In this document: in pieces, positions 12,863-31,259 of the stretch
How the letters are laid out: every line of letters starts with the position of its first letter
How positions within the stretch are numbered: the stretch's first letter is position 1
Source of the DNA: an uncultured Pseudomonadota bacterium
Lineage (GTDB): Bacteria; Myxococcota_A; UBA796; SXON01
Length of the DNA stretch: 37,404 nt
Direction: 5' to 3'
Assembly: GCA_903959175.1 (NCBI GenBank)
Contig: CAJBVW010000061.1
Span: 1-37,404 of the forward strand
Translations under genes and position numbers: made by a program
Notes under the pieces: model-generated
Seen by the model: the letters and a program-made list of their open reading frames with translations, nothing else
Database searches by the model: none
Told to the model about the DNA's origin: nothing

Positions 12863-15361
12863 TCACCCCCCGAACGCCCCCTGCACGATCCCGAGCAGCG
12901 CCCCCCGGTTCCGCCCCACAAACCCCTCGATGTACGCCGCCTCCACCCCCACCGGCGGCCTCGCCCGCAGCACCCCGATGGCCACCTCGAGTAGCCGCTC
13001 CGCCCGCGAGCTCGCGCCGGGCAACGTGGCGACCGGCTCCAGCGCCATCCGCCCCGCCGCGCGCTCGCGCTCCCGCACCATCGCCGCGTTTGCCGCCTTC
13101 TCGGTCTTCACCGCCTCCCGCGCCGCAGCGAGCTGCCGCTCAAGCTTCGCGATCCGCCGCGCGTCCTCGTTCTCCCGCTCGGGGAGCCGGAGCAGCTTCG
13201 TCGCCAGGACGGCGATCGCCGGGAGCAGGTGCGCGGTTGCCGCCCCGAGATCTTCCCTCCTCGAAACGAACTCTTCCGTGTGGCCCTCCCCCATGAGGCC
13301 ATCGAGATGCGTCAGCTCGTGGACGGCCACGCCGTGCAGGAACGCCGCCAGCGCGAGCGGGCGCTCGCGGTGGGCCTTCACAACCTGCGCCATCCGGTCC
13401 GGGTGGATGAATACGAACCGGCGACCCCCGGGCCGTTCGACGGCCTCGGCGACCACGTTGTCGTCGAGCACGAAGCCCGGCCGGAACGTGCGGCGGATGC
13501 GGGCCTCGGTCGCCACCATGCGGAGCGTGCCGTCCCATGCGAGCAGAAAAGGCACCCACTTCGCGTAGTTCTTCCGAAAGCGCCGCGCTCGATCGCGGTC
13601 GTAGGTCCTCTTGCTGATCCGCATCCCGGCGAAGCGACCGAACGGGTTCTTGATCCGGCGCTCGGCCTTGTCCAGCTGCTTCGCCCACGACGGCGTGATC
13701 GCGTCCAACGCGCTCGTCGCCTTCGACACGGCGACCGCCTGGATGAGCCCGCCGCCGCCGGGCGCGAGCGCCGCCTCGGCCGCCCGGTCGATGGCCGCCT
13801 CGACGGCCTGGGTCTGCCAGCCGTCGAGCTGCTGCCCGGCCTCGGCGCGGCGGAGCGCCTGGTCCACCTGCTCGGTGACGATGACGACGCGCACCCCACC
13901 CGCCGCCTTGCCCTGGTCGTCGGCGCTGGTGAGCATCGCGCGGAGCACCCCAGCGGCCCGCACGTCGGACGGCGCGGCGATGTCGGCAGCCAGCCCGCCG
14001 CCGCCGGCCGCGACCTCCATCCCGGCGGGCAACACCCAGCCGCGCTCGGGCGCATCCCCCTCGGCGACGGCCTTGGTGCCGCGCGGAGCGGCCGAGGCGG
14101 TGACCTCCTCGACGCCGCCGTACTTGGCTTGCTCCCCGTAGAAGTCTCGGATTCCCCCGGCAGCCTCGGCGATGGCCCGCTGCACGTCGGCGTCCCCGAA
14201 CGCTGCTGCCATCTGGTCGGCGATCTCGGTGCCGCCGGTGTCGTCGTCGCCCTCGGGGTCGATCCACTCGTCCTCCTCGCTCTTGCCGACCGACTCGTTC
14301 TCGCGCTCGACGTCGTCGACCACGTCGGAGAAGGTCCACGCAGCCTGGTCCTGCAACCCGTCACGAGCCGCGTTCATCGGGTAGCCCCGCGCCCCCGGGC
14401 GCACGGTCGTGGAGAAGTCCACCACCACGTCTGCCTTGAGCCCGCCGCGCTGCGATGGGATCTTCACCTGGAACAAGCCGCCCAAACGCAGGTAGTACGC
14501 CCCGCCGCGGTCGCCGGGTGCGCGGCGGTACGCCTTCACTGCGGCCGTCGTGCCCTCTCCCCACGATCCCTCGACGCTCACGCGGGAGCCGCCTCGGCGG
14601 CTGAACATCGGCTTCACCTCGACGCCGTTGAACGTGAGGCGGATGCCGGGGAGGTCGTTCGCGGCGAGCAGCTCCTTGAGGCGGTCCTCGATGCCGACGT
14701 AGACGCCGCGCGCGCGATCCCAATACCGGATCGAGTCGGGGTCGATGTCGTAGACGGTGAGCATCGTGCCGTCGCGGCGCTCGGCGTCGTACACTTGCAC
14801 CTCGGCGTCCGCCCCATCGGCGATGGCGAGGTTGTCCCGGGTGTGCATCCGCCACTTGAACGAGCGACTGACCCCGAGGATCACCGCCTTCGCGACGCCG
14901 AACCCGCCCGCGGCCTCGCTCGAGTCGGTGGCGTCGCGCTTCCCGCTGTCGCCGATCGACAGGAACTTGCCGATGATGGTGTCGGCGTCCATGCCGATTC
15001 CGTTATCGGCGAAGGACAAGGATCGTTCGGCGGCGTCCCATACCACGGCGAAGTACCCGTCCTCGGGCCTCAGCTTCCGAGCGCGGATCGCAGCCTTGAC
15101 GGCATCGATCGAGTTCTGCAAGGCTTCACGGGTCGCCAACCACGGTAGATCGCCAGATTTGTAAACGGCTTTGGTGAAGTAGCCCCACAGCACAGACACG
15201 TTGGCCGACGGGCGGCCGGACGCCTTCGCCGTCATCGCCTCGCGGATCTCGGGCACGCCGCCGAGCTCGCGCCGGAGGGCCATGTGGTCGATGCGGACGC
15301 GGGCGACGGCCTTCTGGGCGCCGGGCGCGGGCATGGGGTGGGAGCAGGGGCACACGCTCAC
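12863..15361 (-). CDS. GHKL (Hsp90-like) ATPase with HExxH metalloprotease-like segment and C-terminal shared tag
   Basis: This 832-aa protein has three parts. The N-terminal GHKL ATPase shows the N-box REALQNSIDAV (E79, N83), the G1 box DNGIGM (119-124) and a Gly-rich lid GGFGVAK (about 152-158). The middle is Ala/Gly-rich with a linker, followed by a basic region. Residues 681-685 are HELTH, followed by GEGHTEEF, a zinc-protease-like HExxH with a possible third ligand. The last 50 residues carry the tag RPPVGVEAAYIEGFVGRN (801-818), also found in the cytosine methylase and the DarB-like protein of this window. The GTG start has GGAGGT four bases upstream. The exact role is unknown; a Hsp90/MutL/MORC-like remodeller acting with a peptidase is one possibility. 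Confidence 0.85.
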   Translation of the reverse strand: MSVCPCSHPMPAPGAQKAVARVRIDHMALRRELGGVPEIREAMTAKASGRPSANVSVLWGYFTKAVYKSGDLPWLATREALQNSIDAVKAAIRARKLRPEDGYFAVVWDAAERSLSFADNGIGMDADTIIGKFLSIGDSGKRDATDSSEAAGGFGVAKAVILGVSRSFKWRMHTRDNLAIADGADAEVQVYDAERRDGTMLTVYDIDPDSIRYWDRARGVYVGIEDRLKELLAANDLPGIRLTFNGVEVKPMFSRRGGSRVSVEGSWGEGTTAAVKAYRRAPGDRGGAYYLRLGGLFQVKIPSQRGGLKADVVVDFSTTVRPGARGYPMNAARDGLQDQAAWTFSDVVDDVERENESVGKSEEDEWIDPEGDDDTGGTEIADQMAAAFGDADVQRAIAEAAGGIRDFYGEQAKYGGVEEVTASAAPRGTKAVAEGDAPERGWVLPAGMEVAAGGGGLAADIAAPSDVRAAGVLRAMLTSADDQGKAAGGVRVVIVTEQVDQALRRAEAGQQLDGWQTQAVEAAIDRAAEAALAPGGGGLIQAVAVSKATSALDAITPSWAKQLDKAERRIKNPFGRFAGMRISKRTYDRDRARRFRKNYAKWVPFLLAWDGTLRMVATEARIRRTFRPGFVLDDNVVAEAVERPGGRRFVFIHPDRMAQVVKAHRERPLALAAFLHGVAVHELTHLDGLMGEGHTEEFVSRREDLGAATAHLLPAIAVLATKLLRLPERENEDARRIAKLERQLAAAREAVKTEKAANAAMVRERERAAGRMALEPVATLPGASSRAERLLEVAIGVLRARPPVGVEAAYIEGFVGRNRGALLGIVQGAFGG

Positions 15362-15408
15362 GTCGACCTCCAGTCGCCCGACGAGGATCGGGCGGCTACT
15401 GTGGGTAA

Positions 15409-15726
15409 ATGTTGGGTAGCAGCCTCCGAGCCAGCTTTCTCGTGGTCGCTTTCGCGTCCGCTGGCTGCACCCCCACGCGAGTTTGCGAGGGCGACGACTG
15501 CGCCTGCTCGTCCGACGACGAATGCATCATCGGTTGTCAGCCCGACCCGGAGTTGCGGGGTTGCGACTGCACGAACGGGTTCCCCGTGCCCGAGAATGGT
15601 CACGAAGGCGAAGAAGGCTGCGGCGAGATGGAATGCATGGCCGCCATGTGCGCGGATTGGACCGAGTACGAAGCTCGGTGCAGCTTCGGCCGGTGTGTTG
15701 GCGTCCCCGTGAGGGACCACCCGTAG
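15409..15726 (+). CDS. Small cysteine-rich lipoprotein
   Basis: This 105-aa protein has a short signal peptide ending in a lipobox (ASAGC, Cys about residue 20). The mature part is rich in cysteine and acidic residues (CEGDDCACSSDDEC, GCDC, and further Cys pairs). Such small Cys-rich lipoproteins are common in Myxococcota-like genomes. It is transcribed away from the GHKL gene and converges on the methylase. It may be cargo or an accidental neighbour of the element. I cannot assign a function. Confidence 0.65.
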   Translation: MLGSSLRASFLVVAFASAGCTPTRVCEGDDCACSSDDECIIGCQPDPELRGCDCTNGFPVPENGHEGEEGCGEMECMAAMCADWTEYEARCSFGRCVGVPVRDHP

Positions 15727-15758
15727 CTCCTGCCCACGGTCATCGTGGCCGGTGATCT

Positions 15759-16781
15759 TCACGCGGACCTCCGGTGGAGCGCGTGGGAGATGAGCGCACG
15801 GAGGTACCCGGCATTCCGCCCGATGAAGGCGTCGATGTCGTCAGGGTCGACGCCCCACGGCGGGCGGGCGCGCACGCCGGCGACGACGGCCGTGAGCACC
15901 CGTTCGATCCGCGATGCGACCGCCGGGAGGCTCTCCCGCACCGTGGACGCCCCCTCCTCGGCAGCGCGCACGGCGCGGGCGACGACCGCAGCGAGCATCG
16001 GTGGGACGGCGTTCCCGACCTGGCGGTACCGGGACTCGACATCGCCAACGAAGGGGTAGCCCTCGGGAAACGTCTGGAGCGTGGCGCACTCGCCGAGGGT
16101 GAGCTTCCGACGGGCTCCGTGCGTGGCAATCGCGAGCGCGTCGCTCGCGTTGTTCAGCTTTGCCCACCAACTCGGGTCGGTCGGTCGCCCCTTCCACTCG
16201 TTGGTCATCACGCACGGCGACGGCCGATCCCACGCCACCGCAATCGCATCCCGCATCGTTCGGCGCGACGAGCTCGGCTCGGGCGGGGACACGGGCCGGG
16301 GACCGGCGATCACGAACAGGCGCGTCCGGCTCTGGGCGACGCCGTGGTCCGCCGCGTTGAGCACCCAGACCGCGACGTGGGCGAACATCGCGCGCAGTTC
16401 GGGTACAACGACGCGCTCGACGTAGCTCCGCGCGTTCTTCACGTTCTCGAAGATCGCCCAACGGGGGCGGACAATGCGCGTCACCCGAAGGGTCCACGGC
16501 CACCCGTTCCGGGCCACGTCCTCCTCGCCCTTCAGCCCGGCGTGCTGGTTCGCGCTCGACCACGCCTGGCAGGGCGGAGACGCCCACAACACGTCGATGG
16601 TCCCGGCGAGCGCGGCGTAGTCGAGGTCGCGCACGTCGGCCTCGACGGCGGGGAAACCGGCGGCCCGGAGCGTGGCGGCAGCCGAGGCGTCACGCTCAAC
16701 GCAGGCAACGTGCTCGAACCCGGCGTCGTGGAGCCCGAGCGCCGCGCCCCCGGCACCGGCGAACAGGTCGAGCACCCTCAC
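15759..16781 (-). CDS. C5-cytosine DNA methyltransferase with C-terminal shared tag
   Basis: This 340-aa Dcm-type enzyme transfers a methyl group from SAM to C5 of cytosine. Motif I DLFAGAGG (5-12), motif IV SPPCQ with catalytic C71, motif VI ENV (112-114), motif VIII QSRTR (150-154) and motif X GNAVPP (256-261) are all present. The target-recognition region between VIII and X is short. I chose the GTG at 16781, which gives the usual (V/M)RVLDLFAG start and has GAGGTG just upstream; a GTG at 16853 is the longer alternative. After motif X the protein adds about 75 residues ending in RPPWGVDPDDIDAFIGRN (306-323), homologous to the tags of the GHKL and DarB-like proteins. No cognate restriction enzyme is adjacent, so a protective role for the element is likely. 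Confidence 0.92.
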   Translation of the reverse strand: MRVLDLFAGAGGAALGLHDAGFEHVACVERDASAAATLRAAGFPAVEADVRDLDYAALAGTIDVLWASPPCQAWSSANQHAGLKGEEDVARNGWPWTLRVTRIVRPRWAIFENVKNARSYVERVVVPELRAMFAHVAVWVLNAADHGVAQSRTRLFVIAGPRPVSPPEPSSSRRTMRDAIAVAWDRPSPCVMTNEWKGRPTDPSWWAKLNNASDALAIATHGARRKLTLGECATLQTFPEGYPFVGDVESRYRQVGNAVPPMLAAVVARAVRAAEEGASTVRESLPAVASRIERVLTAVVAGVRARPPWGVDPDDIDAFIGRNAGYLRALISHALHRRSA

Positions 16782-16973
16782 GACGCACCTCGGCCGCGCG
16801 CGGGATGCGCGAGCGGCGACGGGTTGCGACGGAGGAAAGCGAACATGATTCACTCACGACTCGAAGGCGTAGGAGGGCCCACGAGCCCTGTTGGCGGGGG
16901 CGGGAGGGGTCCGGGATGGCCCGCTCGCCGACCCCGAGGAAGGGCCCGTGGCGCAGTTTTCCGAGGGGGTGGG

Positions 16974-17399
16974 TCAGGACGGGATGAAGCCTCGCTCACG
17001 CGCCTCGGCGAGGTGGCCGCTGGCCTCCCTCAGCCGGTCCACCGCCATCTGGAGCGCCGACGTGGACGTGCGTGGCCGGGGGAACTGGAGAGCGCAGACG
17101 CCCCGGATGAACATGGCGAGCAGGTCGTCGCGAACGTCCTCCGGCCCGAGGTCTTCGAGATCGCTGCACGGGTGAGTCTCCAGCGCCCGAAGAAGTGCCG
17201 TCGCGACGAAGTCGTGCTTGTACGGCCCGCTCTCGGGTCCGAAGGTGCGCTCCGCCAGCTCCATCAGGTCGCGGAGCAGCGGCCAGAACCACGGCGGGAG
17301 ATCGACCATCGAGAGGTCCCACGGCGGTGGGGGCGGAGGTTCGACGGTGAGCGTTGCGGAGCGGCGGTAGTTCGCGCCGCCGGGGAGGTTCGGATTCAT
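16974..17399 (-). CDS. Small unrecognised protein of the helicase operon
   Basis: This 141-aa protein starts at an ATG at 17397-17399 with AAGGA upstream. It has a Pro-rich N-terminus (PPPPPPWDL) then PPWFWPLLRDLMELAERTF, an amphipathic Trp-rich helix, and a mostly helical acidic C-terminus. No signal peptide, metal site or known domain is evident. It lies between the lysozyme-like gene and the cytosine methylase, in the same direction as both. The frame remains open upstream through the lysozyme gene, but that upstream part is an Arg/Pro-rich shadow. Function unknown. Confidence 0.65.
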   Translation of the reverse strand: MNPNLPGGANYRRSATLTVEPPPPPPWDLSMVDLPPWFWPLLRDLMELAERTFGPESGPYKHDFVATALLRALETHPCSDLEDLGPEDVRDDLLAMFIRGVCALQFPRPRTSTSALQMAVDRLREASGHLAEARERGFIPS

Positions 17400-17440
17400 G
17401 GCGTTGGTCCTTGGGGTGGGGGTGAGATCGGCAGAGAGAG

Positions 17441-18442
17441 TCAGGCCGCGCGGCGCGTGGCCGCGAGGTCCACGGGCACGTCGCGGAGCGTGATGTCGGT
17501 GAGGATGTCGCTCGACCGCTTGGTGATGAGGTCGTAGAGGCTCCACGGCTTCGACGGCGGGCCGGTGACGGCGTGCCAGACCCCCGCCACGGAGACGCGG
17601 CGCACGCGGTAGGCGCCGAGCCCCAGCTCCGACCACTCGGTCGGCACCGGCGACCACCAGATGTTGCCGTCGTCGTTGTAGTTCCGACGCGCGGGGGCGG
17701 AGGTGCGGCGGAACTTGGACGCGCACGTCCAGGCGTATTGGGCGACGACATCGTTGGGGACGGCCGGACGGCGACGTGGGCCCTCGGCGTACCAGGCCAC
17801 GAGCCGCTTCGCCGGCCCGAGTGCGCCCGCCGCGCCCTGGTGGACGGTGCGGTTGTAGTACAACGTCATCGCCCGCTCGGTCGAGACGCCGAGCACGCCC
17901 GCGATCTCGACGGCGCCCGCCATGTACTCGGACTCCGCCGCGACGCGGGCCTGCACCTGCTGGAACGCGGGCCAACGCCCGGCGGCGGCGAAGCGGGACA
18001 CCCAGGGCTCCGCCCAGAGCGCGACGCCATCGACGGCTTCGAGGCTGGCGCGGCCCGTCACGTCGAGGAGCCGCGCCCAGCTCGCGCCGAAGAAGCGGCT
18101 GAAGGCCAACGGATCGGCGGCGGCCATCTGGCGGAGCAGACGGCCGAGCGAGCCGGACTTCTGCGTCCACTGGAGGATGCCGTAGCTGACGCCGTTGCCG
18201 TCGAGGTTGGCCTGCACGGACCAGTAGTTGCCCTCGTGCTCGCTCGTCTTGCGAAGGAGCGTCGGGATCCAATCGGTGATGAGTTCTTCCACCTTCTCCT
18301 CCAGTTTCTTAGCTGCCTTTCCTGCCGATTCCGCGGTCTCCTTCGCAACGCGCCGCGCAGACGGCGATGCCGCCGCCGCGAGCACGAGGAGCCCGAACGC
18401 CCCCGCCCCGAGTAGGAGCGGCATGTTGTTGCCCTTGCTCAC
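17441..18442 (-). CDS. Membrane-anchored lysozyme-like glycoside hydrolase
   Basis: This 333-aa protein has one N-terminal membrane segment (residues about 7-26) followed by a charged helix (ETAESAGKAAKKLEEKVEELI, about 35-55). A lysozyme-fold-like domain then begins TSEHEGNYWSVQANLDGNGVSYGILQW (67-92), the pattern of peptidoglycan or chitosan hydrolases in which the early Glu (E68 or E70) is the acid and the D81-G region supports catalysis. The GTG start overlaps the stop of the DarB-like gene (GTGA). In phages and conjugative elements such enzymes cut peptidoglycan locally during entry or exit; the membrane anchor fits a virion membrane or the host inner membrane. The exact GH family is not certain. 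Confidence 0.75.
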   Translation of the reverse strand: MSKGNNMPLLLGAGAFGLLVLAAAASPSARRVAKETAESAGKAAKKLEEKVEELITDWIPTLLRKTSEHEGNYWSVQANLDGNGVSYGILQWTQKSGSLGRLLRQMAAADPLAFSRFFGASWARLLDVTGRASLEAVDGVALWAEPWVSRFAAAGRWPAFQQVQARVAAESEYMAGAVEIAGVLGVSTERAMTLYYNRTVHQGAAGALGPAKRLVAWYAEGPRRRPAVPNDVVAQYAWTCASKFRRTSAPARRNYNDDGNIWWSPVPTEWSELGLGAYRVRRVSVAGVWHAVTGPPSKPWSLYDLITKRSSDILTDITLRDVPVDLAATRRAA

Positions 18443-21400
18443 GCTGCCCCCTCGGCGACATCGTCGCCCGCGTCGGCTTCGCCGGAGAGCAGGTTCCGCG
18501 GGATCGACCGACCCCACCACCAGCGCCCCGCCTCCGCGAGCTCGCCGAACTTGAGCCCCGACGCCGAGGCCTGCGCGAGGAACGCCTGCCAGCCGCCCTC
18601 CGTCGGCGGGAGCACGTCGACACCGGCGGTCCCCGATGCGGCGCCGGCGTTGACCACGCGGAGCCCGGACGGAGCGACAACCGGGATCTTCTGGCTCTGC
18701 TGGTTGTAGTACGACACCTTCGCGAGCGCGCCGACCACCGTGTCGGCCACCTGCGGCCAGGTGCGCTCGACCCAGGCGTCGGGTGCGTGCTGCCAGCCCA
18801 GGCCGGGCCAGTCGCCCGAGTAGCGGAGCCGGTCGTTGGCGGCCTGAGTCACCGCGCGGATGGTGGATGGCTCCTCGTCCGCCGGGAAGGTCGCGCCGTA
18901 GTTCTCCGGCTTGAGCGAGGTGAAATTGCCGTCATCGGCCTTCGCGAGCTTCCACGTCGCGTCACCGGCCGAGCGCAAGGCGATCTGCCCGTCCCGGGTG
19001 ACCTTCCCGAACTCGATGAAGTCGATGCGCGAGGCGTTCCACGCGCTCGGGATGCCCGCCCGGAGGCCCTCGTACACGGGACCGCCGCCCTCGGCGACGA
19101 GCACCGGGCGTTCGCGGACGACCACCGCGGTCGGCGCCCACGGCCACGCATCGACGTTCACCCGGGACAGGTGCTTCAGCCGCTCCTCGGCCTCGCCGCG
19201 CAGACGGGCCGCCTCGATGCCGTCCTTCGTGCGCTCGGCGTTGCGGAAGCGCGCATTGATGGCGCGCAACAGCTTCGACGCCTCGGCCGCGATCTTCTTC
19301 TTCGCCTCTGCCTCGCGCTGGGCGCGAACGGCCTCGAGTCGGGCGCGGGTCTGCTCGGGGTTCCGGCTGATGAGGAGCAGAATCTCCTCGGGCCCCATGT
19401 CCATCTGGGCGCCGGGGTTGTTGGTGTCCCGGTCCTGAGACTTGATGAGTTGGGTCATCCAACCCCGCTTTCCCTGGATGAGGTTGAAGCGGAGCCCGTC
19501 CTGACTGCGGCGCGCGAAGTAGTAGTAGATCGCGATGGCGGAGAGCGTGTTGCCCTGCCGAACGCCGCGCCCGTTCCGCTGCTGCAACGTGGCAGGTTCC
19601 CACGGCAGGTCGAGGTGGTGGATCGCGCAGGTGCGCGTCTGGAGGTCGATGCCCTCGTAGGCGATCTGGTTCGCGATCACGACGTCGAACTTGGGCGCCG
19701 CGCCCTCGTCGGGGTCGCCGTTGAACTCCTTGGCGATGCGCTGGCGGTCGGCGGCGTTGGGCGCCACCTCGGCGTTCAGCACGCCGATCCGATCGGCCGC
19801 GATCCCCTCCCGGACGAGCACCATCTTGACCCAGCGGTGCGCGGCGACGTTGTCCACGAAGACGATGTGGCCGCAGGTCCGGTTGGCGAGCACACGCTCG
19901 GCGAGGGCCTCGAACTTCGGCGAGCTGGGGTCGCTCACCTGCTCGGCGTTCTTCCAGCCGTAGCCCTGGTCAAGCTGCGAGTGGATGGCGACGAGCGCCA
20001 TGCGGGCGAGCAGCCCGAGGATCTTCGCCTTGTCCGACGGGTCGTCTGACTTCAGCGCCGCTTCGATCTCGCGGACGTAGCGGTCGTACTTGGCGTCCTG
20101 GCCGGCGTCCATATCGACCTCGACCATCTCGACCTTCGGATCGGGGAGCTTCAACCCCACGTCCTCGGCGGTCTTGAACTCGCCGTAGCGGAGGATGGTG
20201 TCGCGCAGCTCGTGGAGGTTCTGGAACCCGACGACGGCGCCGCGCTCCTCGACCTCCATGCTCGGGGTCACGACGGGCCGGATCTCGATCCGCAGGTAGC
20301 GATCGATGAACTGCTCGGGGTCGCGGATGCCCATCCGACGCCAGGCGTCCGGATCGACGTACTGGATGAGGTTGTAGAACTCCAACGGGGAATTCTTGGC
20401 GGGCGTCGCCGAGAGGAGCACGACGCCAGTGCCGCCCGTACGCTTCCGCACCGCGGCACACCGGAAATCCAACTGCCACGCGCGCTTCGAGCCGTCGCCG
20501 GGGTTGCCCATGAACCGGGGCACGCCGCCCTCACGATCCTCTGGGAGGTACAGGTTCTTGTAGTTCTGCGCCTCGTCCACGATCAGCATGTCCACGCCGA
20601 TGTCGTCCCACGCGATGCCGGGGTCGTACTCCCAGCCCTCGGCGAGCTCCATCTGTTGCGCCACCCACGCGGCGATGCCCTCGCGGAGGATGGCCTCGTC
20701 GCGCTCGGACAGCTTCTTCCGCTTCGCCGCGTTGCGACGGCGCAGCGCCACCTCGCGCTGGATCGCCTCGGTCTTGTCGGCGTAGGCCCGAACCGCCTTC
20801 TCGTTCATCCGCGTTCGGCCAAGAGCGGTGTAGGTCAGGAGCACCACGTCGTACTCGCCGGCCTGGAACCGGGTCCACTTCTCGGCGCGCTCCTGGGGCG
20901 TATCGGTGTCGCTCGTGGCGAGGCCCTTCCGCTCGCCGCGTGAGATCGTCTTCTTCTTCGAGCCGATCACCGCGATCCGGTAGTCGGGAAGCACCCGCTG
21001 GATGTCGGCGACCCACTTCCAGACGATGGAGTTGGGCACGAGCACCACCGGCCGCTTGCACCAACCTTCCTGGCGAGCGCGCGCGAGCACGGCGATGCCC
21101 GTGTACGTCTTTCCTACCCCGACATCGAAGGCGAGCAATCCGCCGCGGTTCGCGAGGATGCGGCGTCCGCCGGCGACCTGGTGGGGATGCAGCCGGGGGC
21201 CGTCCTTCCGCCAGCGCGCGATGGCCAGCGGCTCGGCGGTGTAGGTCGGGGCGATGTAGCCCCGGAACTGCCGGTTGTAGGCGTGCTCGATCGCGAGGCG
21301 ACGCTCGGGCGTGGCCCCGGCCCACCCCTTGAAGCTGGCGTCCCACTCGGCCGCCTTCTTCATCCGGATCTTGTCGATGTCCTTCTCGTTGTCGTCGTCG

Positions 21401-23586
21401 AACTTCTTCGAGGGCGCGAACATCGTCTTGTCGTGGTTGATCCAGCCGAGGATGAGCAGCACCTCGGGGTGCATGTCCCCGGCGTTCTCCTTCTTCGACA
21501 TCTTGTCGTACTGCCAGCCCTGCGGCGCGACGAGGCCGCCCTGGCGGACGAAGGTGACATCGTCGTACCCGGTGTACGTCGCGTTCACCCACTGGGCGAC
21601 GAGGTCGAGCGGGAGCCAACCCTGCCGCGCGCTGACGCCCTCGATGTCGTCGAAGATCGCGGGCTTGATCGCGTCGAGGAGTCGGCGGACCTGGGCCTTC
21701 GCCTGCGCGTCGTCGGGACGCGCCATCGCCCGGTCCATCTTCGGCCAGAGCGACCCGGACAGGTACACTTCGGCCGGGAACAGCTCGTCCCAGCCGTCGC
21801 CATCGACGCACCAGCCGCCCGCGAGCACCTTCGCGCGGATCTGGTCGGGCGTGAACGGCCCGCCGAGCCCAGCGTGGTAGTCGAGGAGCTCGCGCACCGA
21901 GAGCATCCGCGCGTGGCGGTAGAGGTGCTCGGCCTGGGCGACCACGTCGTCGGCCCGGCCGTTGAACCGCGGCTCGATGACCGGGGGCTTGTTGCGGAGC
22001 CCGGCGATCAGGTGCCCGGCGCGGTCAAACGCCGACAGGAAGCGCTCGGCGCCGGTGTTGCCGCCACGGGCGAGCTTCACCAGCTCGATTCGGCCGTGCG
22101 GGTTGCCGTTCGTGGTGATCCAGGCGGCGAGGCCCTCGTGCAGTTCGGGCCACAAGAGTGGCGGCTCCTCGGCGTTTTCGGCCGCGACCAGCGCGAGGTA
22201 CTTGTCCACGCGTAGCCCGAGCAGCACCGCGCTGGCGAGCTCGCGCGGGAGGTCTGCGACATCGGCCTCGGTGACGCGGGTGACGCCGATACGACCCCTG
22301 CCGCCAGCGGGGTCGGCGGCCTGCCGAGCCGGGAAGGCGATGACCTTGCAATCGCCGCAGATCGGGCGCTCGACGAGCGCGGGCAGACCGGTGAACTCGC
22401 CCTGCACCTGGTAGCCCCAGCGCGGCTTCGCGGTCTGGTCGTCCTCGCCGTGGTCGTCGCCGACTTCGCGGCCGAGGATGTGACGCGGGAACGCCTTGAA
22501 GTAGCCGCCGGAGACGATGGCCTCGTCGGCGCTGTCCACGGCGTCGAGCTGGCCGCCACGCGCACGGAAGAAGAGCACGTCGGTGACGAGCATCGCGCCG
22601 GGGAAGATCGCCTCGCGTCGCTTCTCGTTGATGCTCGGGAGCCGGAACGCCGCGGCGAGGTGGTGGCGCTTCAGCACCTTCTCGCGGAGGGCTACGAACT
22701 GCGCCGTCCGCGACGTGAGGAAGCCGCCGGGCACGAGGAACACGCCGAGCCCGTCGGGAGCGAGCAGGTCGAGGCCCCGACGAAGGAAGTAGTGGTACGC
22801 CATCTTCTCGCGGTAGGCCCGGTCTGGGTCCTCCGCGATCGACGCCCCGCGGATGCCGTAGGGCGGGTTCGACACGACGAGCCCAAGACGCCCCGCAGCC
22901 CCGGCGCCCTTCTCGCGCACCCAGCGCTCGAACGGGGCCAGCGTGAGGTCCACGTCGGGGCGCAGGACGTGCAGCATCCGGGCGGACAGCTCGGACCACT
23001 CGACGGCGTGCCAGGTAATGCCCGGAACGGGCTCGAACGCACGGAGAAAGCGACCGATACCCGCCGAGGGTTCCAGCGCGTGGACGGTCTCGCCATCGTG
23101 GGGAAGGCTGGGTACCAGCGGCGCGACGAGACGGGCGATCTCCTTCGCCACCTTGCTCGGGGTGTAAAATTCATGAATGAGTCCGCGCTGTTCTGGCGGA
23201 GGGAAGCCTGGCGGGAACTTGCCAGCGGCGGTCTGGATGGAGAGCCCGCCCCAGCCGGAGTACCCGGCGAGCACGGTGCGCTCGTCGGGGTTTGGGGCGC
23301 GCTTCTGGGCGTACAGGTTCGCCGCCGTCGCCATCGCGGCGATGTTCGCCGCGGTGCGCTTGCTGGCGGTCCAGAACTCAGGGATGTCCTCGACGGGGAA
23401 GGCGGCGTTGTTCGCGGCCTGCATCCGCGCGAGCACGGGACCGAGGTTCTGCTCGATGACGGCTTCGAGCGCCCAGCGGTTCCGGGCAAGGAAGTCGTCG
23501 AGATACGCGACGTCCACGCCGCTCGGCAGGCGGGTGCGGACGAGGGGGACGACGGCGTCGAGGAGCTGGGCGGCGACTGCACTCAT
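18439..23586 (-). CDS. DarB-like N6-adenine methylase / SF2 helicase with N-terminal shared tag
   Basis: This 1715-aa fusion starts with the tag RLPSGVDVAYLDDFLARN (19-36). An N6-adenine methylase follows, with motif I EPSAGIG (172-178) and motif IV NPPYG (240-244). A Snf2-like SF2 helicase then shows Walker A GVGKT (823-827), VLVPNSIVWKW, DEAQ (1004-1007), SATP near 1065, and a motif V/VI region with EGIDLQTR and LQQRNGRGVRQG. The C-terminal 400 residues hold a coiled region and a domain of unknown role. This layout matches phage P1 DarB and related methylase-helicases; P1 DarB is packaged in the virion and protects incoming DNA from type I restriction. No clear ribosome-binding site precedes the ATG. 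Packaging here is inferred. Confidence 0.9.
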   Translation of the reverse strand: MSAVAAQLLDAVVPLVRTRLPSGVDVAYLDDFLARNRWALEAVIEQNLGPVLARMQAANNAAFPVEDIPEFWTASKRTAANIAAMATAANLYAQKRAPNPDERTVLAGYSGWGGLSIQTAAGKFPPGFPPPEQRGLIHEFYTPSKVAKEIARLVAPLVPSLPHDGETVHALEPSAGIGRFLRAFEPVPGITWHAVEWSELSARMLHVLRPDVDLTLAPFERWVREKGAGAAGRLGLVVSNPPYGIRGASIAEDPDRAYREKMAYHYFLRRGLDLLAPDGLGVFLVPGGFLTSRTAQFVALREKVLKRHHLAAAFRLPSINEKRREAIFPGAMLVTDVLFFRARGGQLDAVDSADEAIVSGGYFKAFPRHILGREVGDDHGEDDQTAKPRWGYQVQGEFTGLPALVERPICGDCKVIAFPARQAADPAGGRGRIGVTRVTEADVADLPRELASAVLLGLRVDKYLALVAAENAEEPPLLWPELHEGLAAWITTNGNPHGRIELVKLARGGNTGAERFLSAFDRAGHLIAGLRNKPPVIEPRFNGRADDVVAQAEHLYRHARMLSVRELLDYHAGLGGPFTPDQIRAKVLAGGWCVDGDGWDELFPAEVYLSGSLWPKMDRAMARPDDAQAKAQVRRLLDAIKPAIFDDIEGVSARQGWLPLDLVAQWVNATYTGYDDVTFVRQGGLVAPQGWQYDKMSKKENAGDMHPEVLLILGWINHDKTMFAPSKKFDDDNEKDIDKIRMKKAAEWDASFKGWAGATPERRLAIEHAYNRQFRGYIAPTYTAEPLAIARWRKDGPRLHPHQVAGGRRILANRGGLLAFDVGVGKTYTGIAVLARARQEGWCKRPVVLVPNSIVWKWVADIQRVLPDYRIAVIGSKKKTISRGERKGLATSDTDTPQERAEKWTRFQAGEYDVVLLTYTALGRTRMNEKAVRAYADKTEAIQREVALRRRNAAKRKKLSERDEAILREGIAAWVAQQMELAEGWEYDPGIAWDDIGVDMLIVDEAQNYKNLYLPEDREGGVPRFMGNPGDGSKRAWQLDFRCAAVRKRTGGTGVVLLSATPAKNSPLEFYNLIQYVDPDAWRRMGIRDPEQFIDRYLRIEIRPVVTPSMEVEERGAVVGFQNLHELRDTILRYGEFKTAEDVGLKLPDPKVEMVEVDMDAGQDAKYDRYVREIEAALKSDDPSDKAKILGLLARMALVAIHSQLDQGYGWKNAEQVSDPSSPKFEALAERVLANRTCGHIVFVDNVAAHRWVKMVLVREGIAADRIGVLNAEVAPNAADRQRIAKEFNGDPDEGAAPKFDVVIANQIAYEGIDLQTRTCAIHHLDLPWEPATLQQRNGRGVRQGNTLSAIAIYYYFARRSQDGLRFNLIQGKRGWMTQLIKSQDRDTNNPGAQMDMGPEEILLLISRNPEQTRARLEAVRAQREAEAKKKIAAEASKLLRAINARFRNAERTKDGIEAARLRGEAEERLKHLSRVNVDAWPWAPTAVVVRERPVLVAEGGGPVYEGLRAGIPSAWNASRIDFIEFGKVTRDGQIALRSAGDATWKLAKADDGNFTSLKPENYGATFPADEEPSTIRAVTQAANDRLRYSGDWPGLGWQHAPDAWVERTWPQVADTVVGALAKVSYYNQQSQKIPVVAPSGLRVVNAGAASGTAGVDVLPPTEGGWQAFLAQASASGLKFGELAEAGRWWWGRSIPRNLLSGEADAGDDVAEGAA

Positions 23587-25468: not shown

Positions 25469-25866
25469 GGCCCTGCCCCGCTAGCCGCCTCAACCGGCAG
25501 GCTCGGCACCAACACCTTCACCGCCTCCGCCGCCCGGGTCGGATCGACCCCGCGCTCCAGCGCGAGGATGCCGATCACGAACATGTTGAGCAGCCAGAGC
25601 AGTAGCATCGACCAGGGCACCCAGCGGAACGGCGGGTTCGTCCGGACCTCGCGGATCTCGGTCTTGAGCTCGCCGAGCGCGGACACGACGGCCGCGCCGT
25701 TGCCGCGGATCTCGGCCACGAGCGCCGCTTCGAGCGGCGTGAGGAAGCCCTCGGCGAGCTGCGGGTCGGGGACCAGGCGCGGGCCGACGGCGGGGGCCGG
25801 GGCGGGCGGGATCTGTCCCGCGGGCGTGACCGTTTCGACGGCGGCCAGGGCAGCGGCATCGCTCAC
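25465..25866 (-). CDS. Single-pass membrane protein of the small-protein operon
   Basis: This 133-aa protein has an Ala/Pro-rich N-terminus, a short amphipathic segment (residues 42-75) and one strong membrane segment (WVPWSMLLLWLLNMFVIGILAL, about 82-103), then a short C-terminal tail. The GTG start overlaps the preceding stop. No enzyme motif is present. It could be a virion-membrane or holin-like protein, but this is inferred only from size and setting. Confidence 0.72.
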   Translation of the reverse strand: MSDAAALAAVETVTPAGQIPPAPAPAVGPRLVPDPQLAEGFLTPLEAALVAEIRGNGAAVVSALGELKTEIREVRTNPPFRWVPWSMLLLWLLNMFVIGILALERGVDPTRAAEAVKVLVPSLPVEAASGAGP

Positions 25867-27341
25867 GACGCACCCCCCATCTGGGCCGCAGCCTGCTTGA
25901 TCGCATCCGAGAACGCCGCGACGAGCGCCGCATCCTTCGCCGGATCAACCTCCGGACTCTTCGCCTTCCGCGTGCGCTTCGGCTTCTCGGTCGTCGGGAC
26001 CGACATCGGCGGCGCGGAGGGCGGCCACACGGGCTGCATCGATACCACGGGCGCGGGCGTCTCCCGCGACTCGATCCGCTTCACCACGTCGTCGGAGCTC
26101 CGCACCGGCGCAGTGAGCTTCTGCTGACCGGCGGCGCAGGACTTCGCGGCACGCGCGGCGGCGAGCGACACGCGCTCGGAGATCCGGCGCAGCGTGGTGA
26201 CGATGTCGGGGCTCTCGCCGCGACCGATCGCGTCCCACGCCTGCTGGTAGGCCCCGGCGGCGCGGCGCACATCCTCCAGCGCCGCCTTCTGCTCCTTGCC
26301 CGAACACAACGGGGACGCGACGAGCGACTGCGCGTGCCGGATGAGCTTCCCGGCGCGCGTGAGCAGGTCGGGGGCCTCGGTGGAGCCCCAGAGCGACCCG
26401 GCCAGCTCCTCCAACGCCTGGGACTCCTTCTCGGTGGCCGACGCGATGCGCGCGACCGAGATCGGGCACGAGGGCGGCTCGGGCGCCGGGATCGAATCCA
26501 GCGAGGGCACGAGCACCCCCGCCGTCCGCGGCGGGGCATCGGCGACGGGCACCGTCCCGCGCGTGAGCGCGCTGGCGTGCTTCGCGGCCTTGCCCTTCTC
26601 GCGCTTGCCGAACATGGCCACGACCGAGCCCACGTCGTTGACGACGACCCAGCCGTCGTCCCGCTCCACGGCGCGGAAGCTGGACTTGCCCTTGTACCGC
26701 TCGGTGGGGTCGCGCCGCTCGGGGATCGGGCGCGGCGGGTACTGGGCGGCGAAGGCGAGATCGACGGTGTTCCGGCGGTGCGTGTCGCGGAAGCTGCACG
26801 CCTCGGACACGAGCCCGACGACAAGCCCCATCCCGGCCGTGATCGCCTCGGCGAGGCCGGAGCGCTCGATGCTCTCCTGCTTCGCCTTGCTGAACCACTT
26901 CTCGGCGCGCTCGAAGGTGGCGAGCCAGCGCCCGTCTGCCTTCGACGTGAGCTTCAGCGACCCGTACGACGCGACGCGGCGTTCGAGCACGATGCTCGGG
27001 GTGCCGTCCGTGCAGAGCAGAAGCCCCGCCCACTTCCCCTTCAGGGTGGCAGGCCCGGCGGGCGGAGGACCGGACTTCAGCTTCCGCAGCTCGGCGACGG
27101 CCGAGGTGGGATCGGCGTCGAACTCGGGCGCGTGCGACGGCGCGAGCCCGAGGTCGGTACGCCACACCTTCGCGGGCTGCCGCTTCACCTGGTGGACGAG
27201 CAGCGCCGTGTTGTCGCGCGGGCGCATCACGAACGCGACCTCGCCGCCGCAGCCACGCCCGTAGGCGAGCAGCACGCGCGGGACGTCCTCGTCGGCACCG
27301 ACGATGTTGAAGCGGAACTTCTCGGGGTTGGTCGTGGTCAT
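25863..27341 (-). CDS. Unrecognised 492-aa protein of the small-protein operon
   Basis: This 492-aa protein has a compact N-terminal domain (residues 1-260, mixed alpha/beta with RVLLAYGRGCGGEVAFVM near 22-39) and a helical C-terminal part. It ends in a Lys/Arg-rich stretch (KPKRTRKAKS) and a short helix. No nucleotide-binding or catalytic motif is seen. The ATG start lies three bases after the upstream stop, and the stop overlaps the following GTG. It is the largest protein of the operon and a candidate structural or scaffold protein. Function is not assigned. Confidence 0.75.
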   Translation of the reverse strand: MTTTNPEKFRFNIVGADEDVPRVLLAYGRGCGGEVAFVMRPRDNTALLVHQVKRQPAKVWRTDLGLAPSHAPEFDADPTSAVAELRKLKSGPPPAGPATLKGKWAGLLLCTDGTPSIVLERRVASYGSLKLTSKADGRWLATFERAEKWFSKAKQESIERSGLAEAITAGMGLVVGLVSEACSFRDTHRRNTVDLAFAAQYPPRPIPERRDPTERYKGKSSFRAVERDDGWVVVNDVGSVVAMFGKREKGKAAKHASALTRGTVPVADAPPRTAGVLVPSLDSIPAPEPPSCPISVARIASATEKESQALEELAGSLWGSTEAPDLLTRAGKLIRHAQSLVASPLCSGKEQKAALEDVRRAAGAYQQAWDAIGRGESPDIVTTLRRISERVSLAAARAAKSCAAGQQKLTAPVRSSDDVVKRIESRETPAPVVSMQPVWPPSAPPMSVPTTEKPKRTRKAKSPEVDPAKDAALVAAFSDAIKQAAAQMGGAS

Positions 27342-27344
27342 GGT

Positions 27345-28001
27345 TCAGCCCTTCCCCAGCTTGGGGACGATGAAGATGGCGGCCCCGGCGAGGCCGAGCG
27401 CGGCGAGGAGCCAGCCCCAGCCGCTACCGCCCGCCTTCGCGAGGTCCTCGGTGGGGGAGGAGGACGGAGCGGAGTGGTTGATCTTGGCGATGGCGTCGGC
27501 GAGTGCCGGATCGCGCTCGATGATCGCGATCTCGTCGGAGAGCACCTGCGCCTCCTTGTAGTGGACGACGGCCCACGCGAGGCCGGTCATCGAGACGGCG
27601 ATCACCGCGCCGGCCGCGGCGATGGCGATGATCACGACGGGCGCGACGCCAACCTCAATGGCCCCGCCACGCTCGGACGCGGTCGCGGGGCGCTCGTAGG
27701 CGCCGTACCCCTTGGCGTGGGCGCTCCACGAGGTGAGCAGCGCGATGGTGCGCCGGAGCAGCGCCGTGAGCGCCGGATCGCCGGGCTTCGCGGCGAGCGC
27801 CTGGATGACGGTCACCTGAGCGCGGATCAGCCGCGACCCGCTGTCCGCGACGATCGCGCGGTAGCCCGCCACGACCTTCGCGAGCGCCTGCGCGTTCTCA
27901 GCGGCGTAGCTCTGCACCCGCGCGAGCGACTGCTCGGCGGTGATCCGCATCGCCTGGATGCGCTCCGAGACGGCCTCGGTGCTGACCGGGAGGGTGGCCA
28001 T
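27345..28001 (-). CDS. Two-segment membrane protein
   Basis: This 218-aa protein has a long N-terminal helical region (1-100), a membrane segment (about 117-146, VAPVVIIAIAAAGAVIAVSMTGLAWAV) and a second hydrophobic segment near the C-terminus (GWLLAALGLAGAAIFIVPKL). I chose the ATG at 27999-28001, which has GGAG seven bases upstream; a GTG four codons earlier is possible. The layout would suit a membrane-embedded virion or lysis protein, but no family is recognised. Confidence 0.75.
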   Translation of the reverse strand: MATLPVSTEAVSERIQAMRITAEQSLARVQSYAAENAQALAKVVAGYRAIVADSGSRLIRAQVTVIQALAAKPGDPALTALLRRTIALLTSWSAHAKGYGAYERPATASERGGAIEVGVAPVVIIAIAAAGAVIAVSMTGLAWAVVHYKEAQVLSDEIAIIERDPALADAIAKINHSAPSSSPTEDLAKAGGSGWGWLLAALGLAGAAIFIVPKLGKG

Positions 28002-28002
28002 T

Positions 28003-28842
28003 TCAGCTCCCACACCGGCGGCCGTCGTCGCATCCGAGGTAGCCGGCCACCGGCGCGGGAGCGGCCGGGGCAGCGGGCGCCGGTGCGGGCGCCGGGTGAG
28101 CGGCGGGTGCGGGCTTCGGCGCGAGCGCCTTCTGGATCTTGTCCTTCACCAGCGGGTAGAGCAACAGCGGCAGGATGCCGACGTTGTCCCCCGCGATCCG
28201 CTTTGCCGCCTTGTCCGACACGATCTGCACGATGAACAGGCCGGGGCTCACGGTCGCGACCATCGCGTTCTGCCCCGCCTTCGCCTGGATGCGCGCGGCG
28301 TCGCCGAGCGGCTTGTGGGGGCCCCACTTCGCCGCGAACAGCTTGCCCGCTTCCTCCAGGAAGTTCCGCTTCGGCTTCTTGGGCTTGGCCGCAGGCTCCA
28401 CGCCGACGTAGCCGTCGAGCCAGTTGCCTTCCGTCTCGTCCTCGGCAGGTTCGGGCGCGTCCTCGATGCCCTCGTCAGGCTCCTCGGTCTCGCCGGGCTC
28501 GGCCTCGGGGATGTCGTCGAGCGCCGCGTCCATGTCGTCCTCGCCGGGCTTCCGGGCCCGACTCGGCTTCTTGGGCTTCCACCCGAGAGCGCGCAGATCG
28601 ACCATGACGACGGCGAGCCGACGCTTGGCCTGGCGCAGCGCGGCCTTCCAACCCAGCGGGTGCCCTGCGGACAGCTTGGCGATGCGGCGCTTGAGCGCAC
28701 GGGCGCGTCGGAGCTTCGCCCGGATCTGGCGGTCCTTCGCCGTGAGCTTGCGCTTCGGGCCGGAAACGATGGCGCGGCGGGACTCCCCGGCGAACTCTAC
28801 GGGACCGACGACGCGGGCGCGGATGAAGCGAGAATTGGACAT
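28003..28842 (-). CDS. Basic N-terminus, acidic middle, membrane-like C-terminus protein
   Basis: This 279-aa protein starts at the ATG at 28840-28842, which shares one base with the stop of the gene before it (TGATG). The first 105 residues are highly basic (KRKLTAKDRQIRAKLRRARA, QAKRRL), followed by a Glu/Asp-rich linker (about 107-150). A KPKKPKRN segment leads to a helix-rich end with a hydrophobic stretch (NVGILPLLLYPLVKDKI) and an Ala/Pro tail. The charge pattern suggests nucleic-acid or capsid-interior contact. No known family is recognised. Longer upstream starts give Pro/Arg-rich, probably untranslated text. Confidence 0.72.
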   Translation of the reverse strand: MSNSRFIRARVVGPVEFAGESRRAIVSGPKRKLTAKDRQIRAKLRRARALKRRIAKLSAGHPLGWKAALRQAKRRLAVVMVDLRALGWKPKKPSRARKPGEDDMDAALDDIPEAEPGETEEPDEGIEDAPEPAEDETEGNWLDGYVGVEPAAKPKKPKRNFLEEAGKLFAAKWGPHKPLGDAARIQAKAGQNAMVATVSPGLFIVQIVSDKAAKRIAGDNVGILPLLLYPLVKDKIQKALAPKPAPAAHPAPAPAPAAPAAPAPVAGYLGCDDGRRCGS

Positions 28843-29423
28843 CAGGACTCCCGGCGCCGAGAACGGCGCGATTGGGTGGAACGGTGGGAGCGGCGGCGCC
28901 CCTGGTCGGGGTCGCGACGGAGCCCGGCGAGGCGGACGCGGGTGACGATGCGCTCGTGGCACTGCCGCCCGTCGAGGCGCTCCTCGAGCATCCCGAGGCG
29001 GGCGGAGGGGTCGTCGAACCAGGCGGTCCCGTTGACGACGTAGCGGACGACGCAGTGGTAGAGCCCGTGCTCGCCCTTCTTGATCGACGTGGTGAGCGCC
29101 ACCTCGCTGGGGATCGACTCAAGGCGCGCGGCCCTCGCCGCGGCGTATCCGGGGTCGTTTGGCGCGAGCGCCTTCCACCCGCGGGCGATGAGCTCACCGG
29201 CCCGAGCGGCGGCGAGCGCGTCGCAATCCTCCCAGCCCTGCGCGAGCAGCTGGATGTAGTCGGACCAGGTCTCCTCCTCCTCGCGTCCGTACCGAACGCT
29301 CGTCGCGTAGAGCAACGGCAGCGTCGGCCGCTCGCGGAGCAGGCGCGCGTTGCAGCGGGCCAGCCAGTTGAGCAGGCTGACCGCGTCGCGTTCGTTGAAA
29401 GTGAGGGCAACCGTGATGTTCAC
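28842..29423 (-). CDS. Transglutaminase-like cysteine protease-type protein
   Basis: This 193-aa protein shows the Cys-His-Asp order of transglutaminase-like cysteine proteinases. GWEDCDALAAARAGELIARG places C67 next to D68 at the start of a helix. GLYHCVVRYVVNGTAWFDDPSARLGM gives H123 on a strand and D137 or D138. The spacing and the 'DC(D)xLA...G' and 'H-V-x-V...W-x-DP' patterns fit the family, although the usual GDC is EDC here. The C-terminus is an Arg/Ser-rich tail. The GTG start has only a weak ribosome-binding site. It may process virion proteins, cross-link them or act on peptidoglycan; activity is inferred. Confidence 0.68.
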   Translation of the reverse strand: MNITVALTFNERDAVSLLNWLARCNARLLRERPTLPLLYATSVRYGREEEETWSDYIQLLAQGWEDCDALAAARAGELIARGWKALAPNDPGYAAARAARLESIPSEVALTTSIKKGEHGLYHCVVRYVVNGTAWFDDPSARLGMLEERLDGRQCHERIVTRVRLAGLRRDPDQGRRRSHRSTQSRRSRRRES

Positions 29424-29438
29424 GAGGATGTCCGCGGG

Positions 29439-29855
29439 TCAGGAGGAGGAGAGTTGGAAGCCGCCGGTCGACACGATGTCAACCGACGCGACGACGCCAG
29501 GCGCGGTGCCACCGGCGAGGACGAGGCGGGCGCGAACCCACGGGAGAAGCCCGACGTTCGCGCTGTCGAGCGCCTCGGCGTAGGTGCCGGGGTCCGTGCG
29601 GACGGTGCCGAGCACGAGGTCCACCCAGGCGAACCCGTCCACAGACCCCTGGATGAGGAGCTGCGCCGTCGGCGAGTTCGCGCCCCCGGAGAAGGTCAGC
29701 AGCGTGATGAACTTGAACTCCTGCACGGAGTCGTTCAGCCGATCGCTCTGGTCGGGCAGGATTCGCACCCCCGGGCCGTTCTGGGTGACCGTGACCGGCG
29801 TCTGCGGCGGGGTGTTCATCAGGCGGGTCGTGACCCGATTTGCGTAGCACTTCAT
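29439..29855 (-). CDS. Beta-rich small protein, candidate structural component
   Basis: This 138-aa protein is dominated by predicted beta strands (FKFITLLTFSG, AQLLIQGSVDGFAWVDLVLG, WVRARLVLAGG, VVASVDIVSTGG). The pattern 'xxLLIQGSxDGxxWVDL ... PWVRARL' is typical of small beta-sandwich proteins in phage structural modules. The ATG is preceded by GAGGG. No signal peptide or enzyme motif is seen. A capsid, spike or decoration role is a working idea only. Confidence 0.7.
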   Translation of the reverse strand: MKCYANRVTTRLMNTPPQTPVTVTQNGPGVRILPDQSDRLNDSVQEFKFITLLTFSGGANSPTAQLLIQGSVDGFAWVDLVLGTVRTDPGTYAEALDSANVGLLPWVRARLVLAGGTAPGVVASVDIVSTGGFQLSSS

Positions 29856-29874: not shown

Positions 29875-30513
29875 TCAAAGGTGGAGGAGGAAGACGACGC
29901 GGTAGGCGTAGGTGCCGGCGGGGAGCACGCACCGGATGGTCGCGGCGTCCCCGATGGGAGCGCCCGGAGCGGGCTGCTTGTCGGCCGCGTACCGGCCGCG
30001 GGCGGTGGCGTTCACGTCGAGGAGCTCGACGAACGCCGTGGAAAGGAGGGTGCTGTCCGAGAGTTCAAGGCGGACGAACTTGGCCCACGGGGGCGGGATC
30101 ACATCGACACTTCCGCCGCCGCCCCCGACGATCTGGGCGCTCGATCCCCGCACCGTCCACTGGTTCTCGGTGTCACATTGGCCGTTGGCAATCGCCGCAC
30201 GCGCCTGGATGTTGGCCGAAGTAGACAGGTTGGAGCCGAACACCTGCACGGTCGTGGCGTGGACGCAGATGCGCGTACACTTCGGGACGTCGAAGAGGGC
30301 CGTGCGCTGGGCACCGCCGCCGCCGGACCAGACGAGCCGGGCCTCCCAGGGGGAGCCTTCGTCCGACCAGAGGTCGATGATGCGCCAGTCGCCGTCACCC
30401 ACGCCGACGGATTGCGCCGTGAGCACCTCGCCCTCTGCCCCCGCCGAGCCGGCCACCGTCGAAGCGGAGAGCTTCGCGGTACCGGAACGGCGGGAGAGCT
30501 TGCATACGCCCAC
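29875..30513 (-). CDS. Beta-rich protein, candidate structural component
   Basis: This 212-aa protein is Gly/Ala/Val-rich with many short strands (EARLVWSGGGGAQRTALFDV, TRICVHATTVQVFGS, WAKFVRLELSDS, TYAYRVVFLLHL) and scattered cysteines. It contains no recognisable enzyme motif, signal peptide or membrane helix. The start is a GTG with GGTGAG nearby. Its neighbours are the 138-aa and 242-aa beta-rich proteins. Together they could be jelly-roll-type virion proteins, but nothing in the sequence proves it. Confidence 0.7.
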   Translation of the reverse strand: MGVCKLSRRSGTAKLSASTVAGSAGAEGEVLTAQSVGVGDGDWRIIDLWSDEGSPWEARLVWSGGGGAQRTALFDVPKCTRICVHATTVQVFGSNLSTSANIQARAAIANGQCDTENQWTVRGSSAQIVGGGGGSVDVIPPPWAKFVRLELSDSTLLSTAFVELLDVNATARGRYAADKQPAPGAPIGDAATIRCVLPAGTYAYRVVFLLHL

Positions 30514-30530: not shown

Positions 30531-31259
30531 TCAGCAGCGCGGCGTCTTGACCCGCGCCTTGCCGTAGAAGCTGAGCTTCAGGGCGGCGGTGGTCGAGCCA
30601 GCCGTGTAGTTGATGGTGACCGGGACACCGGCGCGCAGGATGCGTCCGCCGAAGGAAGGCCCGTGGTACGCCGTGGGCGAGATCAGCGCCGCGTCGAGGT
30701 TGTCGAGCACCACCGGGTCGTCGCCCGAGATGATGGTGTTGATCGTCGCAGCGGTGTCGCCGGTCGCGAAGATCTTGGAAAGATGCAGGCTGGTACGCGG
30801 CGTGAGGGTCACGCTCATCGACTGCCCGACGGCGGTGGCGACGATGCCGCTCACGGTGACGTTGCGCTCCACGATCTTCCCCTTCCGCGACTTGCGGATC
30901 TTGCGGTTGACGGCCCGGTTCTTCTGCGTGAGCTTCTTCTCGCGGGCCGCGAGGCGCTTCTGGCGGCGGTGGATGCTGCGGAGCTTCCGCTGCTTGGGCG
31001 TGAGGCCGATCTCGTCGCCGAAGTCGTCGCCGAGGTCGTCGCCGAGGTCGTCGCCGAAGTCGTCCCCGAGGTCGTCGCCGAGGTCGTCGCCGAAGTCGTC
31101 GTCGTCGTCGTCGTCATCGTCGTCGTCGTCGTCACCGTCGAGGTCCGCCCCGAAGGAGGGGTCGAGGCCGTGGAGCGAGGCGCGCAGGGAGGTGCGATCG
31201 ACGAGGCAATGCCCGTCGGCGGTGAAGGTCACGAGGGCCCAGATGGGTGCGGTGGTCAT
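30531..31259 (-). CDS. Asp-repeat protein with basic segment and beta-rich C-terminus
   Basis: This 242-aa protein has four parts. A short N-terminal domain (1-40) precedes a poly-Asp run and GDDL/GDDF tetrapeptide repeats (about 42-83). A strongly basic coiled segment (88-128, with RRQKRLAAREKKLTQKNR) comes next. A beta-rich C-terminal domain (130-242) contains VTLTPRTSLHLSKIF and a hydrophobic YHGPSFGGRILRAGVPVTI stretch. The last part would suit a jelly-roll coat domain, with the charged arms facing nucleic acid or other subunits. The Asp repeat is encoded by a 12-base DNA repeat and may vary in length. No family is recognised. Confidence 0.72.
   Translation of the reverse strand: MTTAPIWALVTFTADGHCLVDRTSLRASLHGLDPSFGADLDGDDDDDDDDDDDDDFGDDLGDDLGDDFGDDLGDDLGDDFGDEIGLTPKQRKLRSIHRRQKRLAAREKKLTQKNRAVNRKIRKSRKGKIVERNVTVSGIVATAVGQSMSVTLTPRTSLHLSKIFATGDTAATINTIISGDDPVVLDNLDAALISPTAYHGPSFGGRILRAGVPVTINYTAGSTTAALKLSFYGKARVKTPRC
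31018..31138. repeat. In-frame 12-base and GTC repeats encoding Asp-rich tract
   Basis: The plus strand shows about six 12-base units of the type GTCGTCGCCGAG or GTCGTCGCCGAA, then a run of GTC triplets with one ATC and one ACC. On the minus strand these encode GDDL/GDDF repeats followed by poly-Asp. Such repeats expand and contract by slippage without changing frame. Confidence 0.85.

Follow-up and report, generated by a model that had tools for sequence, protein, structure and literature searches.

A small domain of about 45 residues, hereafter the tag, stands at the ends of at least six unrelated proteins, most of them DNA-modifying enzymes, of a family of mobile elements found in Myxococcota. 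The tag is a real domain family that was not previously listed. It is strictly terminal, it is confined to one element family, and within that family it has been transferred between unrelated proteins. It is likely to act as a common docking or sorting module. In our best explanation, to which we give about even weight, the tag would be a docking domain that gathers a changeable set of mostly DNA-modifying and antirestriction-like enzymes at one element-encoded partner of prophage-like Myxococcota elements, perhaps a part of a particle.

The window, which is the whole 37,404-nucleotide stretch of DNA analysed here, corresponds to one contig (C61) of a 7.2 Mb genome in 611 contigs, and three of its proteins, all encoded on the reverse strand, carry the tag. 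The first is a GHKL ATPase-like protein of 823-832 residues (12863..15361) with weak similarity to Pfam HATPase_c_3 (E = 9.5e-4, below the curated cut-off) and to an NCBIfam HSP90-family model (E = 1.6e-8, below its cut-off); a HELTH metallopeptidase motif was read in its sequence, and it is referred to below as the GHKL/HExxH protein. The second is a C5-cytosine DNA methyltransferase of 338-364 residues (15759..16853; Pfam DNA_methylase, E = 4.9e-43; TIGR00675 above cut-off). The third, of 1715 residues (18439..23586), is a DarB-like N6-methylase and SNF2 helicase that matches the PHROG DarB-like antirestriction family with E = 3.5e-77. Its Pfam matches to SNF2, Helicase_C and Eco57I establish that the adenine-methylase and SNF2 helicase dyad is present, and the NPPYG and GWGGL that we read in its sequence correspond to the NPP(Y/F) active-site motif and to the GXGU motif of the N-terminal LPD36 domain (PMC5512222).

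The three proteins align without gaps over 45 residues, with 36-42% identity and 10 invariant columns. The copies are C-terminal on the GHKL/HExxH protein (12872..13006, reverse strand) and on the cytosine methylase (15777..15911, reverse strand), and N-terminal on the DarB-like protein (23443..23577, reverse strand), and each was recovered both by the tag HMM and by a held-out profile. For example, the copy on the GHKL/HExxH protein scored E = 1.4e-24 in its own genome against an HMM built from the same three window copies, and E = 7.9e-12 when held out. Indeed, when profiles built from two copies were used to find the third among the 566 ORFs of the window, the E values were 7.9e-12, 1.6e-10 and 3.2e-9, and the best non-tag ORF reached 0.4 or worse. 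Across the genome, the three-copy profile gave 11 matches at E < 1e-9 and the next candidate stood at 0.014. These leave-one-out and genome-wide searches rule out chance similarity, and the 55-60% DNA identity between the window copies rules out recent duplication. An earlier note on this DNA had described a motif shared by the three proteins, which is borne out by the leave-one-out values (3e-9 to 8e-12). It had also described a further 25 or so residues before the motif as similar in the two C-terminal copies; this extra similarity exists, but it is not confined to those copies, since the N-terminal one aligns as well over the 45 residues. The methylase tag occupies residues 315-359 of the 364-residue ORF, and the earlier numbering of 306-323 reflects the choice of start codon.

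From 50 diverse copies, AlphaFold predicted a helical hairpin formed by residues 3-17 and 25-48 (mean pLDDT 95, pTM 0.74), and the roughly 45 residues are predicted to fold independently. Among the tag columns one arginine (Arg34 in tag-model numbering) is invariant, and near-invariance is seen for a phenylalanine (Phe31), a proline, a glycine and a leucine; the loop region is rich in arginine. The position of the tag is constrained as well. In most DarB-like proteins it starts at residue 3-5, in the methylases it ends 1-2 residues short of the C-terminus, and in the GHKL proteins it lies mostly within about 5 residues of the C-terminal end. A search of solved structures in the PDB returned no convincing or meaningful relative of the tag. 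These properties bear on two other roles. Amphipathic helical hairpins often serve for oligomerisation, and the occurrence of the same domain at N- and C-termini would also suit a dimerisation or oligomerisation domain, through which an enzyme self-associates or pairs with another tagged one; the tag, however, has no structural match to a known dimeric hairpin, and we judge this role to be improbable. A DNA-binding domain that sends enzymes to the DNA of the element would draw on the invariant arginine column and the arginine-rich loop. Yet the tag resembles no known DNA-binding fold, and a strictly terminal tag would bring little gain to proteins that already bind DNA, which makes this role slightly less probable still.

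At a threshold of E 1e-4 or better, the tag was present in 32 of the 71 genomes of the class, one of which (G017) has a weak and probably spurious match. Classified tag-carrying ORFs from these 71 genomes fell into the three main classes seen in the window (DarB-like, methylase and GHKL) and a few others. Outside of the class, confident matches among 379 sampled genomes of the phylum were on DarB-like proteins only, in two genomes (G245 and G326). When the search was extended, additional genomes from a second class proved to have the tag, some of them near-complete (11-12.5 Mb, 2-5 contigs). DarB-like proteins bear it at the N-terminus there too, and separate proteins of about 220 residues are further carriers. 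The HMM recurrence check put forward in the earlier note therefore came out positive, the tag being found on proteins of the same element type both in this class and in others. Furthermore, in the 71 class genomes the tag and the element marker, a 193-residue protein described below, occurred together in 27 and were both missing in 38, with the tag alone in five and the marker alone in one (Fisher p 1.7e-13); in that one genome (G032) the DarB-like protein carries a degenerate tag. The tag thus belongs to one mobile-element family. Its co-occurrence with the marker is not independent evidence of function, because both are parts of one element. That a single fold recurs, only at the termini, on many unrelated proteins of this type of element does strongly support the reading of the tag as a common module. 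It could be supposed instead that recombination between adjoining genes has spread the tag as a neutral passenger, and truncated element copies with leftover tags (on contigs C330, C406 and C36) are in keeping with this. However, the tag is kept across classes on proteins that are only about 43% identical, with its arginine invariant, and we consider a neutral passenger very improbable.

The additional carriers are informative as to what the tag is attached to. In one genome (G038, locus L185), three neighbouring genes encode tagged proteins, two of them with weaker tag matches. One is DpdA-like (Pfam DpdA, E = 2.2e-14) and has its tag at the C-terminus. Another, tagged at the N-terminus, is Mom-like (PHROG Mom-like DNA modification phrog_1384, E = 2.9e-11; NCBIfam XF1762 family, E = 6.1e-11, below that family's cut-off). 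The remaining protein contains a JAB-type HNHP-x5-S-x2-D motif, read by eye, and had no match in the family libraries searched. Two other genomes (G034 and G025) encode a PAPS-reductase-like protein with an N-terminal tag (phrog_424, E = 5.1e-17) that weakly resembles SspD of phosphorothioation systems (E = 2.9e-5), and G034 also has a tagged protein of 179 residues. Carriers are therefore strongly tilted toward DNA modification, because the new ones are DpdA-like, Mom-like and PAPS-reductase/SspD-like and no structural-type, membrane or lysis protein was among the carriers found. The suggestion in the earlier note that the tag marks a set of DNA-protecting enzymes has gained support from the DpdA-like and Mom-like proteins in particular. 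The tagged proteins of about 220 residues in the second class, in one case encoded directly upstream of the DarB-like gene, appear to be non-enzymatic and could be adaptors. Examples lie at L287 178-840, L288 1456-2133, L289 3608-4306 and L292 14448-15089, and they have a second region in common with the N-terminus of the DarB-like protein of the same lineage.

Two types of methylase occupy the same slot of the element. All 14 methylases of the window type (53% identity or more) are tagged, and the second type, most of which are about 37-49% identical, has no detectable tag. At its C-terminus the second type has a different conserved stretch with a VDP...RRN/RRH pattern; in the untagged methylases at L054 12561-13652 and L119 5557-6633, for example, this stretch reads GRVVAGAHRAWTALR...VDPTALAGALRRNRLTVPAHLG. 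Profile comparison of this C-terminus with the tag gave a weak link (P 0.004, probability 9%), and the stretch may be a diverged tag.

The tag is not a standard part of DarB, a possibility that was ruled out by comparison with homologues from elsewhere. The alignment with DarB homologues of tailed phages and plasmids begins only at about residue 94, and the tag profiles had no match in the DarB of phages D6 and Lalka27b or in a Bordetella phage homologue. Similarly, tag HMMs run against DarB and Ulx proteins of P1-like and Thermus phages gave nothing better than E 40 in any protein. Since these phage and plasmid homologues lack the tag, it is an addition made in this element family. The closest functional parallel is P1 DarB itself, whose first 30 residues suffice to carry a reporter into the capsid (PMC9024508). 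The likeness lies in a short terminal signal on a DarB-type methylase/helicase (PMC9024508); unlike P1, the element uses one domain on many proteins and at either end, and the DarB of the P1-like phage D6 has no tag match. The capsid-targeting sequence of T4 IPIII is likewise short and takes foreign proteins into the capsid (PMC9024508), but T4 is a tailed phage, and the likeness is drawn from the published description. Polyvalent proteins of phages and conjugative elements also combine the methylase-helicase dyad and metallopeptidases in proteins transferred with DNA (PMC5512222), but there the activities are fused in one giant polypeptide, whereas here separate enzymes have a small tag in common.

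More generally, small terminal modules that direct many unrelated partners to one place are represented by the docking domains of modular synthases and by the cargo-loading peptides of encapsulins and contractile injection systems. The tag may be like these in principle. On the docking reading, the helical hairpin on each enzyme would bind one common element-encoded partner, and this partner might, more speculatively, belong to a particle. The tagged enzymes would then enter the next cell with the element DNA and protect it, as P1 DarB does by way of its own N-terminal targeting sequence. Such virion loading is a good and plausible hypothesis. Of the docking, assembly or packaging signal proposed in the earlier note, the common module has stood, with one fold, terminal placement and many carriers, and loading into a particle has fared less well, in that no capsid gene was recognised and no relation of the tag to the N-terminus of P1-like DarB was detected. 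No covariation was seen between the tags of DarB-like and GHKL proteins across seven lineages (p 0.22), a result that neither supports nor excludes a common partner.

A less probable but still serious alternative is that the tag assembles a DNA-modification complex within the producing cell, whether on DarB, on the element as it replicates or elsewhere; the DNA would be marked before it exits, while the proteins themselves stay unpackaged. The enrichment of carriers in DNA-modification enzymes, able to act before packaging, fits such a complex, and so do the small tagged proteins without a recognised enzymatic domain, as possible adaptors. By itself, however, this alternative leaves the inclusion of the GHKL/HExxH and JAB-motif proteins unexplained, and the DarB-like genes stand among structural-type genes, as expected of late, packaged proteins. 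Docking at one element-encoded partner is the reading that we favour. A broader version of it, which we put forward tentatively, would see here a new class of tailless prophage-like Myxococcota elements in which a hairpin at either end makes any enzyme a member of a DNA-protection set that travels with the genome; the composition of this set (methylases, DpdA, Mom, phosphorothioation-like enzymes and peptidases) would vary by element. Even for P1 it is unclear how antirestriction proteins are chosen to be delivered along with the phage DNA; a common signal among the Dar proteins was sought by the authors and not found (PMC9024508). With one conserved domain on at least six unrelated proteins, this question can be tested directly. 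The tag would also serve as a guilt-by-association marker, any new carrier being a candidate DNA-modification enzyme; it marks an element family missed by viral collections, and it could be used as an orthogonal protein-loading tag.

With its integrases, lysis-type genes and conserved beta-rich proteins, the element resembles a prophage and may be a virus. At many loci the gene order is kept: a divergent trio (380, 200 and 162 aa) is followed by a run of small proteins (241, 242, 193, 138, 193, 279, 218 and 492 aa and a small membrane protein), and then by the DarB-like protein, a peptidoglycan-hydrolase-like protein, the methylase and the GHKL/HExxH protein. In the window the trio lies on the forward strand (32419..34698), and the other genes for which positions are given here lie on the reverse strand. 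At the head of the module is a conserved 241-residue protein (31326..32051). Three structural candidates come next, namely an acidic GDD-repeat protein with a conserved C-terminal domain (30531..31259), a predicted all-beta protein (29875..30456; AlphaFold pLDDT 83) and a 138-residue protein (29439..29855). They are followed by the 193-residue element marker (A8; 28842..29423), the most conserved element protein, present in 28 of the 71 class genomes. Farther along are a basic protein of 279 residues (28003..28842), a membrane protein of 218 residues with a hydrophobic segment (27345..28001; 28 loci) and a protein of 492 residues (25863..27341; 41 loci). The trio, the 241-residue protein, the GDD-repeat and 138-residue candidates and the basic protein are all conserved over loci. 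The peptidoglycan hydrolase-like protein (17441..18442), whose gene start overlaps the DarB-like stop, is untagged and has a hydrophobic N-terminus suggestive of a membrane anchor (Pfam GH46, E = 0.004, sub-threshold). Elsewhere, at one locus (L091), an M23 peptidase gene is present as well as the lysozyme-like gene. The marker protein had no Pfam family above cut-off and no match among phages; its Cys, His and Asp are invariant, and it is possibly a cysteine-protease or transglutaminase-like enzyme.

Scans of the element proteins with PHROGs and Pfam recovered no terminase, portal or HK97-type capsid protein and no A32-like packaging ATPase. A strict Walker A pattern was absent from the called genes of the window element, although the same pattern also misses the DarB-like helicase (DVGVGKT). 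Three structural candidates had no meaningful relative in the PDB. For the all-beta protein, the one structural candidate with a predicted fold, the best Foldseek matches were XepA and PyShell and none was to a capsid, so that its identity as a capsid protein is not established. The conserved element region scanned had no relaxase or type IV secretion genes. DarB-like and tag queries found no related record in IMG/VR, and a GHKL query against viral contigs matched only a 47-residue segment in four contigs. In a distant relative (E446), a single hydrophobic segment is present in many of the proteins; this would suit a particle that contains a membrane, without proving that there is one.

The element family is an undescribed, repeatedly copied mobile element of myxobacteria. 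Within the genome of the window, one further copy is intact (C203), two are cut by contig ends (C270 and C45) and remnants lie on C36, C330 and C406. A copy in another genus of the same family (G007) has a DarB that is 98% identical, and therefore the element moves. Near two complete-genome elements no attachment repeats or tRNA targets were found. Tyrosine integrases occur near two relatives (L179 and L248), and serine-recombinase-like ORFs, judged by eye, near others. Relatives appear in public records as MAGs labelled Myxococcota, Deltaproteobacteria or simply proteobacteria. Three MAG records titled Klebsiella pneumoniae also carry the myxobacterial element (CAMAXZ010000003.1, L072; CAMBIK010000249.1, L076; CAMBIK010000001.1, L085), with a 98% identical DarB in L072, and these labels are probably wrong. 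On one flank in the window is a defence island (158-10480), largely in common with G007 at about 94-97% DNA identity, which comprises genes resembling type I restriction-modification systems (158-6754; assigned to this family by eye) and Lamassu-like genes (LmuA 6751-7989, E = 6e-37; LmuB 8483-10480, E = 1.3e-122). A metal-efflux-like operon, by eye comprising a TolC-like protein, an RND pump and a P-type ATPase, adjoins the element (window 36277-37404; L196 10242-17880), and such an operon also occurs beside elements in G007 and G024.
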